NCBI RefSeq assembly: GCF_024125425.1
Contig: NZ_JAMXWN010000004.1
Location: forward strand, 1 to 64,000
Direction of reading: 5' to 3'
Length of the DNA stretch: 64,000 nt
From: Sporolactobacillus kofuensis
Lineage (GTDB): Bacteria; Bacillota; Bacilli; Bacillales; Sporolactobacillaceae
Shown here: one piece after another, positions 2,809 through 19,144 of the stretch
Position numbering within the stretch: position 1 is the stretch's first letter
Layout: each line of letters begins with the position of its first letter
Notes under the pieces: generated by a model
Databases searched by the model: none
What the model was told of the DNA's origin: nothing
The model's input: the letters and a program-made list of their open reading frames with translations, nothing else
Translations under genes and position numbers: made by a program

Positions 2809-2908
2809 TTCTTCACTGAGAGTAGATTTACTTGTTATTTCTTAATCGTTAATAGATACTTATTAATGGTAATAAATGAACCCAATGGTTTAAGGAGAGG
2901 TTAGGCAC

Positions 2909-4204
2909 ATGGATATACATACTTCTGAATCACTTTACAAAGAAGCACTGGAAAATATCGTTGGCGGTGTTAACAGTCCGTCACGTTCTTTCGCTGCCGT
3001 CGGCGGTGGCGCACCAGTCTTTATGAAAAAAGGAAAAGGCGCATACTTCTGGGATGAAGATGGTAACCGATACATTGACTATCTTGCAGCTTATGGCCCA
3101 ATCATTACAGGATTCGCTCATCCGCACATTACCGAAGCGATTAAGAAGCAAGCTGAACTTGGTGTGCTTTATGGAACACCGACAGCACTGGAATCAAAGC
3201 TTGCCATCATGTTGAAAAAGGCAATTCCGTCCTTAGATAAAGTTCGTTTCACAAATTCAGGAACTGAATCGGTAATGTCTACTGTTCGCGTTGCCCGCGC
3301 TTACACTGGCCGAACGAAAATCTTGAAATTTGCCGGCAGTTATCATGGCCATTTTGATCTTGTTCTAGTCGCAGCAGGTTCAGGCCCATCGACGCTTGGT
3401 TCACCGGATTCTGCAGGTGTTACCGAAAGCACAGCCAAAGAGGTCATTACTGTACCGTTTAACAATGTTGAGACATTGAAACAAGCCTTTGATAAATGGG
3501 GTCAGGATATTGCCGGCGTTCTCGTTGAACCGATTGTCGGAAACTTTGGTATGGTTATGCCGAAACCAGGTTTTCTCGAAGCAATTAATGACATTGCGCA
3601 TAAAGCCGGCGCAGTTGTCATCTTTGATGAAGTCATCACGAACTTCCGTTTCATGTACGGCGGTGCACAAAACTATCTCGGTGTTACACCTGACCTTACA
3701 GCGATGGGTAAGATCATTGGTGGTGGACTACCCATCGGTGCTTACGGCGGAAGAAAAGAAATTATAGATGAAGTTGCACCTCTTGGCCCTGCCTATCAGG
3801 CAGGAACAATGGCTGGTAACCCGCTCTCTATGGCAAGTGGTATTGCTTGTCTTGAAGTACTCCAAACACCAGGCATTTACGAAGAGATGGATCGCTTAGG
3901 TAAGAAACTGGAAGAGGGGATCTATGCAGTAAATGAGCACTATCATCTTCCGATTGCTATCAATCGTATTGGTGGTTCCATGACGTTGTATTTCTCAGAT
4001 CATGAAGTTACAAACTATGATGAAGCGAAAGCAACCGATAGTGAAATGTTTGGCCGCTTCTTCAAATATATGTTAGAAAAAGGCGTAAATCTTGCCCCTT
4101 CGAAGTATGAAGCGTGGTTCCTGACAACCGAGCATACGGAGAAGGATATTGACGAAACTCTTGAAGCCGTTGATTATGCATTTGCTCAGCTCGCAAAATC
4201 ATGA
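2909..4204 (+). CDS. gsaB: glutamate-1-semialdehyde 2,1-aminomutase
   Basis: PLP enzyme that turns glutamate-1-semialdehyde into 5-aminolevulinate, the C5-pathway haem precursor. The 431-residue length fits HemL/GsaB. The PLP lysine is K268 in [18 protein letters not shown]. The cofactor Asp pair FDE lies at 239-241, and NSGTES at 116-121. An AAGGAG site precedes the ATG. It lies alone rather than in a hemAXCDBL operon, and its neighbours (bcp, perR, YgaE-like) match B. subtilis gsaB, the second copy there. A strong terminator follows. Confidence 0.94.
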
Positions 4205-17820: not shown

Positions 17821-18636
17821 TTATTCCACATTGCTGGTCCGTTCACGTATAAATGCATTAATCGCATCCAGTGGAAAACCTTTTCGATAAAGATAGTTCT
17901 TTACTTTTAAAGCAAATTCTCGGCCTGAGTATTTCTTATATTTCTGCATCGCTTTTTCCGCCTGATGCACCAAAGCACTCTTTTCATTCTCTATCAGAAA
18001 ATCAGTCATTTCATTAAGGACTTGTTCGCTAATTTCTCTGGAATAGCCTCTTTGCATGAGCAATCTGGAAAGAACAAGTCGTGCCTCGGTTTTTGATTTT
18101 TTATTTTTTACCGACGAGGTTTGTTTGATCAAGTATTTTCTTGCGTGTTCGACCTGCTGATCCAGAGGAAACAATTCATCTGCCTGCGCTGCGAGATCTT
18201 GAGCAACACCGGCTTGGATCAATTCTCTATAGATCAGTTGCGGTCCTTTTGTAGATGTTTGGATTCTCGTACGAACAAAAGAAACAGCGAACTCACTGTC
18301 ATTCAGAAGATTTTCTTCTTCAAGCCGTTGAATCGCATAATGAACTTGTTCCGCACCAAATTGTTTCTTTTCAAGATATGCTCTCAACTCGAATACACTA
18401 TGCATTCTATATGAAAGGTAACGTATGCCTGCATTGTAGGCACGAATTCCAGAGGCTTCATTCCTTAATACCTCTACTTGTTGAACGGATAATTCTAAGC
18501 CCTTTCGCAAACCTTCACGCACCAGAATGTCTTCATGGACACTCAGCGTTGTTATCTTTTCATCATCTTCAGAAATTTCGATATCGAAAAATCCCTGCTC
18601 TTTGTCATTCGTCCGTATTCTGGTGATCAGCGCCAT
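17821..18636 (-). CDS. recX: recombination regulator RecX
   Basis: RecX protein of 271 residues that modulates RecA filaments. It is made of repeated three-helix units, seen in segments such as YLSYRMHSVFELRAYLEKK, AIQRLEEENLLNDSEFAVSF and RLLMQRGYSREISEQVLN. The start at ATG 18636 gives the usual length, with GGGGGC upstream. The open frame continues 26 codons further but is unlike RecX. It corresponds to yfhG in B. subtilis. I see no LexA box nearby. Confidence 0.9.
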   Translation of the reverse strand: MALITRIRTNDKEQGFFDIEISEDDEKITTLSVHEDILVREGLRKGLELSVQQVEVLRNEASGIRAYNAGIRYLSYRMHSVFELRAYLEKKQFGAEQVHYAIQRLEEENLLNDSEFAVSFVRTRIQTSTKGPQLIYRELIQAGVAQDLAAQADELFPLDQQVEHARKYLIKQTSSVKNKKSKTEARLVLSRLLMQRGYSREISEQVLNEMTDFLIENEKSALVHQAEKAMQKYKKYSGREFALKVKNYLYRKGFPLDAINAFIRERTSNVE

Positions 18637-18814
18637 GCATTCAGCCCCCAGCTCTTTTATCAATATCATATCATAAACTTTTATCTTCGTTTGGAAAAAT
18701 GAGGGAAACTCCATTCGCTCTTTCTAACAGGCAGCGATGCATGATTTATGGAATAAAAAATCATTTATTTTTCTGAATTTATGAGGTCAACTAAACTGAA
18801 AATGTCAATAACTC

Positions 18815-18982
18815 TGTGGATAAGTGGATAACTCATGAAAATCCTTAAAGAATAACGATTCAAAATGTGTATCATTTTGTTTACAACTATTCTATTTTTT
18901 GTGGATAGTGTGCATAAGTCTGTTGAAAAGCTTGTATTACTTTGTCTTTTTTTGTCAAGTGTGTGGATAAACCTGTGGATTC
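18815..18982 (+). other. cluster of six DnaA boxes
   Basis: Six boxes with the same orientation lie in 168 bp as three close pairs: TGTGGATAA at 18815 and AGTGGATAA at 18823; TGTGGATAG at 18900 and TGTGCATAA at 18909; TGTGGATAA at 18962 and TGTGGATTC at 18974. Two are perfect matches to the DnaA box TTATCCACA (reverse complement), three have one mismatch and one has two. The 508-bp recX-pdaA gap around them is AT-rich and holds no credible gene. No dnaA or dnaN is nearby, so this is more like a DnaA-binding cluster outside the origin than oriC. Confidence 0.72.
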
Positions 18983-19144
18983 TGTTCGTAACTTTTTTCG
19001 AGTTTTTTTTAATACCTTCATCCTGAGGGATTAAGGCGTTCACTTTTAGGGATGCAAGACTTCAAAAAAAGAAGAAAACCAAATTCTTGTGAATGAGGTT
19101 TCCAAAGATGTTGCTATTTAGTTTCGCACAGCTAAATTCTCAGA

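Follow-up and report, generated by a model that had tools for sequence, protein, structure and literature searches.

A conserved single-strand DnaA-box cluster at the pdaA/recX locus of Sporolactobacillus and its likeness to the extra-oriC clusters of Bacillus subtilis

Introduction

Clusters of DnaA boxes lying outside oriC (DBCs) are described for Bacillus subtilis (Okumura 2012, in the account given by the review PMC5295017; binding data in PMC4447404), and the joint removal of six of them leads to early initiation of replication (PMC5295017, PMC13220808). The strongest DnaA regions of that organism are dnaA, dnaN, ywcI-vpr, gcp-ydiF, trmE, ywlC, sda-yqeG and yydA, and several clusters are known to control genes (PMC4447404). 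Among these eight regions, gcp(tsaD)-ydiF has 10 sites, and ATP-DnaA at 55 nM recovers about 16-fold more of its DNA than ADP-DnaA does (PMC4447404). In E. coli, DnaA is reported to favour boxes that lie 2-3 bp apart (PMC11317965). The cluster described here bears on the question of how DnaA is kept in check in Gram-positive bacteria, which do without the datA/DARS/Hda system of E. coli.

The cluster lies between recX and pdaA in a 64,000-nucleotide stretch of the Sporolactobacillus kofuensis genome (hereafter the window), and it is best read as a further member of the class of extra-oriC DnaA-box clusters. Like the DBCs of B. subtilis, it consists of multiple intergenic DnaA boxes in a mid-arm position away from oriC; unlike them, it occupies an unlisted locus, has all of its boxes on one strand, and is kept while both of its neighbours change. 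The top-20 list of B. subtilis DnaA sites (PMC4447404) has no entry at recX or pdaA. Our search of the open-access literature returned nothing relevant on DnaA boxes at recX, yfhF or pdaA, and nothing on DnaA in Sporolactobacillus.

Results

Scanning of the sequence confirmed the six DnaA boxes that an earlier note on this DNA had placed at 18815-18982, all on the minus strand, together with start-to-start distances of 8, 9 and 12 in the three box pairs; of the six, two are without mismatch, three carry a single one, and GAATCCACA, the sixth, carries two (Table 1). The array is longer than was noted at that time, running from 18803 to 18991 with its conserved degenerate boxes, for a total of about 10 boxes on one strand. 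RecX homology begins at codon 27 of its ORF and there is an ATG at 18636; with the RecX start so placed, the gap between the two genes extends over 18637-19144, which upholds the 508 bp given previously. The AT-richness ascribed to this gap is likewise borne out, as its 18715-19144 part has 32% GC vs 42% for the window.

Table 1. Features of the DnaA-box array, its flanking genes, and counterparts of known clusters elsewhere in the S. kofuensis genome. Percentages are mean column identities (12 Sporolactobacillus sequences).
Feature	Position	Strand	Remarks
Degenerate box TTATTGACA	18803-18811	-	2 mismatches; 12 bp from 18815 box
DnaA box TTATCCACA	18815-18823	-	perfect; 96%
DnaA box TTATCCACT	18823-18831	-	1 mismatch; starts 8 bp from 18815 box, sharing one base; 97%
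Degenerate box TGATACACA	18866-18874	-	2 mismatches; partly conserved, 79%
Degenerate box TTGTAAACA	18878-18886	-	several relatives have TTATCAACA or TTATCTACA; 22 bp from 18900 box; 84%
DnaA box CTATCCACA	18900-18908	-	1 mismatch; 92%
DnaA box TTATGCACA	18909-18917	-	1 mismatch; fits TTATNCACA consensus of PMC4447404; 88%
DnaA box TTATCCACA	18962-18970	-	perfect; 99%
DnaA box GAATCCACA	18974-18982	-	2 mismatches; weakest of six; 89%; core ATCCACA nearly invariant
Degenerate box TTACGAACA	18983-18991	-	outer end of array; 89%
Whole conserved cluster	18797-18995	-	profile R1, 131 bits; R1 was made from this and other sequences, so not an independent test
recX	17821-18636	-	downstream of cluster, same strand; NF010733, E 1e-61, below curated cut-off
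pdaA	19145-19924	-	cluster beyond its 3' end, same strand; TIGR02884, above cut-off
sda-yqeG counterpart	L062:8804-8901
yydA(rlmH) counterpart	L066:4722-5100
gcp(tsaD)-ydiF counterpart	L201		boxes 2897-3028 of reverse complement

Such a concentration of boxes is not expected from the composition of the DNA. When the 18715-19144 part was dinucleotide-shuffled 20,000 times, boxes carrying no more than one mismatch numbered 3 at the most over the two strands together; the native sequence has 5, all on one strand. The array is the sole place in the window where at least 3 such boxes fall within 200 bp, and the whole 2.96 Mb genome has only 41 perfect DnaA boxes. Several boxes within about 300 bp, beyond chance, are what is expected of a box cluster. 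No known RNA family was found in the window at gathering thresholds.

The outer degenerate box TTATTGACA is better conserved than the perfect boxes, being identical in 12 of 12 sequences. In the aligned relatives it holds an invariant, -35-like TTGACA, and in most relatives a second TTGACA follows the 18962 box; this motif in or near the array is possibly a -35 element, or possibly a special DnaA site. Neither the alignment nor a promoter scan revealed a -10 at a constant distance from the invariant TTGACA. The sigma-A scan placed no promoter at TTGACA, and on the same strand it returned one weak site (18697-18670), which is no more than is obtained in shuffles. Neither sigma-A promoter nor terminator signals at the cluster rose above chance in the scan.

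The cluster is kept in all 15 Sporolactobacillus genomes examined, the window genome counted. A search anchored on RecX located it within 1.5 kb upstream of recX in 9 of the 14 other genomes of the genus, while a search anchored on PdaA located it 3' of pdaA and on the same strand in 14 of 14 genomes with a pdaA match (window genome included); in the fifteenth (G007) it adjoins recX. The earlier note had named loss of the boxes in close relatives as what would tell against a DnaA cluster. Such a loss was apparent in G003, G005 and G011, which have no boxes within 1.5 kb upstream of recX, but only because no more than this interval was inspected, and the cluster sits beside pdaA in each of them. 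In G001 and G012 the contig ends upstream of recX, and the cluster is again present beside pdaA. As to whether the cluster is conserved beside recX in relatives, which the note had put forward for checking, the boxes are kept, and recX is not constant as their neighbour. Other genera of the Sporolactobacillaceae also carry the cluster on the pdaA strand (Terrilactibacillus and Tuberibacillus among them), and in two genera (G015 and G022) extra genes are inserted between it and pdaA.

The neighbour on the side away from pdaA may be recX, an XRE-type HTH-cupin regulator with its operon, an ABC operon, a GNAT gene or small ORFs. In most genomes this next gene is co-oriented with the cluster; the GNAT gene of G010 and the small ORFs of G020 and G025 are on the opposite strand. 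The ABC operon presumably encodes permease, ATPase and binding protein, the names beyond the tested permease having been read from the sequences, and the operon after the XRE-type regulator is one that we take to be potABCD, for polyamine uptake (names beyond the tested regulator similarly read). The HTH-cupin regulator and the apparent polyamine-uptake operon lie directly downstream of the cluster in S. nakayamae, S. laevolacticus and a further two (L148-L150, L153), taking the place that recX has in other species. Since the neighbours vary while the cluster stays, the element appears to be selected independently of either. A conserved role in acting on recX, one of the effects previously suggested, is therefore rejected, as the next gene changes within the family and the PdaA-anchored searches show the cluster staying in place where recX is far away. 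An action on pdaA, which had also been suggested, is unlikely, given the position of the cluster beyond the 3' end of that gene and the genes inserted between them in two genera. In Terrilactibacillus sp. S3-3 (G018, L162; completeness 75%) the recX, pdaA and dnaA matches are broken by frame changes or stops and the cluster is intact; the broken genes are probably assembly error.

Alignment of 15 clusters demonstrates that boxes and spacing are kept and the spacers far less so. Within that alignment, the 12 Sporolactobacillus sequences have a majority identity of 91.5% in box columns vs 65.5% in spacer columns, and when the box mask was shifted circularly, 0 of 199 shifts were as good as its true position. 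The recurrent spacing is about 12-42/53-9-22-13-43-8, with 53 replacing 42 in Sporolactobacillus, and in G008 and G009 there is an additional 11 bp between two boxes; these changes are of about 11 bp, the length of one helical turn. Coherence with a 10.5-bp phase reaches R 0.57-0.92 in the pdaA class (individual p values between <0.001 and 0.07), a moderate level, and at the other two loci it mostly falls short of significance; helical phasing is accordingly not claimed as a strict rule. The 12-bp start-to-start pairs of the array agree with the 2-3 bp separation that E. coli DnaA is reported to favour, and closely spaced pairs are a feature shared with the double DnaA boxes, datA and DARS1/2 of E. 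coli.

A sequence-only profile of the cluster was searched in 397 genomes of the order, and it matches nearly all of them, mostly weakly, where a match signifies a similar cluster and does not imply the same locus. Sixteen loci outside of the family were opened (L180-L195; gene names read from the sequences, with TsaD and GNAT identity tested). Eleven are beside tsaD and/or ydiF (L180, L182, L183, L184, L185, L186, L188, L189, L190, L193, L194), and the other five (L181, L187, L191, L192, L195) are beside recX or the GNAT gene that is upstream of recX in Sporolactobacillaceae. In at least 14 non-family genomes (G234, G297, G133, G062, G238, G274, G231, G044, G198, G367, G148, G246, G395, G305) a profile match lies upstream of recX, at a distance of 0.4-5 kb and on the strand of that gene, and with G072 and G346, added by their neighbouring genes, at least nine families besides Sporolactobacillaceae are represented; these tallies of genomes and families are minimum counts and not a rate. 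Nearness to recX thus recurs in other families, mostly with other genes in between. In Priestia abyssalis, Fictibacillus nanhaiensis and Pseudalkalibacillus salsuginis the cluster comes after pdaA and a methyltransferase gene, presumably rlmCD from its sequence; most other named Bacillaceae loci examined have no cluster within 2.5 kb of pdaA.

The tsaD-ydiF clusters of other Bacillales, as picked out by the profile, have a similar spacing (9-12-42-9-22-13-43) in 4 of 7 tested. The pdaA/recX clusters of related genomes share their spacing order with these four better than shuffled orders do (mostly p <0.04), in what is a partly biased comparison since most of the tsaD loci were chosen by the profile, and the remaining three match poorly. 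The window's own cluster, with 53 for 42, matched the spacing order of none of the tsaD clusters better than shuffles did. The tsaD clusters of G016, G019 and G024 were retrieved through the protein, which avoids the profile bias, and they show the template by eye. Unlike the pdaA/recX cluster, many tsaD clusters add a reverse-strand box; the S. kofuensis genome (G000) holds both kinds, its tsaD cluster being mixed-strand and its pdaA/recX cluster single-strand.

Canonical DnaA is encoded in the S. kofuensis genome (TIGR00362), with dnaA on a different contig from the window. In six near-complete relatives (G014, G002, G023, G018, G234, G274) the cluster is located 0.57-0.99 Mb from dnaA, or 12-26% of the genome, in a mid-arm position, and this distance resembles that of gcp-ydiF in B. 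subtilis (628 kb, PMC4447404).

Discussion

The boxes of the pdaA/recX array are conserved in relatives, and the array is located away from dnaA and oriC, both of which are characteristic of extra-oriC DnaA-box clusters. On the sequence evidence, its reading as such a cluster is well supported because the boxes and their spacing are conserved. We consider it fairly probable that the array is a stand-alone element of the B. subtilis type, one that limits free DnaA and tunes initiation, and its persistence while neighbours change was counted for this explanation. By analogy, titration of DnaA with a delay of initiation would be the best-supported function. DnaA would bind the pairs of boxes, which are close together and on one strand, and may then assemble into an ordered, cooperative complex upon the conserved spacing template; several DnaA molecules held at a mid-arm position would leave less of the protein free, and initiation at oriC could in this way be delayed or timed, with the dose of the cluster expected to double as the fork passes. 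Counted against this account were the following: the conservation of spacing is stricter than a simple sponge requires, the 10.5-bp phase coherence is moderate, and recX/pdaA is absent from the B. subtilis top-20 list.

The alternative with most in its favour is a DnaA-controlled promoter, in which bound DnaA activates or represses the co-oriented downstream gene (recX in the window, other operons in relatives) and so ties it to replication stress, as happens at sda. Such regulation may occur: the next gene is co-oriented in most genomes, the outermost box carries the -35-like TTGACA, clusters in other families lie upstream of recX, a recombination regulator, on the recX strand, and gene control by several B. 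subtilis clusters is on record (PMC4447404). The likeness to sda extends to the placement of DnaA boxes upstream of a gene, and the sda cluster has a counterpart in this genome. At sda, however, DnaA activates one conserved target, whereas no conserved downstream target is found here, the next gene varying within the family from recX to the XRE regulator with its pot-like operon, the ABC transporter, and genes on the opposite strand. As the scan furthermore found no sigma-A promoter at TTGACA, and the cluster may be as far as 1.4-5 kb from recX, we regard this alternative as rather unlikely. The cluster thus probably serves to dock DnaA and so tune its availability, not to switch an adjoining gene on or off.

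A nucleotide-switch element comparable to datA or DARS, where the ordered assembly would stimulate DnaA to hydrolyse ATP or let go of ADP instead of simply retaining the protein, would account for the rigid multi-box geometry, and the preference of the similar gcp(tsaD)-ydiF cluster for ATP-DnaA is in keeping with it. Nonetheless, datA requires IHF, DARS2 is reported as a DARS2-Fis complex, and B. subtilis is without IHF and these loci (PMC13220808), and initiation in B. subtilis is controlled at DnaA oligomerisation (PMC5295017, PMC4447404), such that we deem a switch of this type improbable. It is most improbable either that the array, for all its boxes in AT-rich DNA, is a secondary or relic origin, given its mid-arm locus in near-complete relatives and the dnaA and oriC-type clusters elsewhere, or that its boxes are chance or inherited functionless occurrences, since single boxes are common enough by chance but the shuffle test, the conservation of boxes over spacers and the recurrence across families speak against it.

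In its broader implications, the recurrent spacing bears directly upon whether such clusters act as an ordered complex or a passive sink, and a fixed geometry over several families, at a locus missing from the strong sites listed for the model species, points to structure and selection in extra-oriC clusters. We tentatively raise the possibility, as a conjecture less secure than titration, of a defined DnaA nucleoprotein module in Bacillales. It would be built on a fixed spacing template (about 8-10 boxes, all on one strand), occupy at least two loci, the recX/pdaA region and tsaD-ydiF, and be kept in about ten families, and it might act as an ordered complex (a nucleotide-state sensor or an initiation timer) and not as a passive sponge. 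The copy in the recX region would then have escaped notice through the absence of a strong site at that position in the model species B. subtilis.

The S. kofuensis genome has further clusters at dnaA, dnaA-dnaN, sda-yqeG, rlmH (yydA) and tsaD (gcp) at least, and with these separate clusters of known type present, that at pdaA/recX is an additional one. In two Sporolactobacillus genomes, G002 (L202) and G014 (L205), the 1.5 kb that follow tsaD hold no box cluster, although others of the genus have one there. Yet another cluster of S. kofuensis (L063:7789-7920; G000:C40:47788-47919), at a locus that is not among the strongest B. subtilis DnaA sites, is flanked by the 3' ends of two genes, one for an MFS-type transporter and the other a DUF488 gene.
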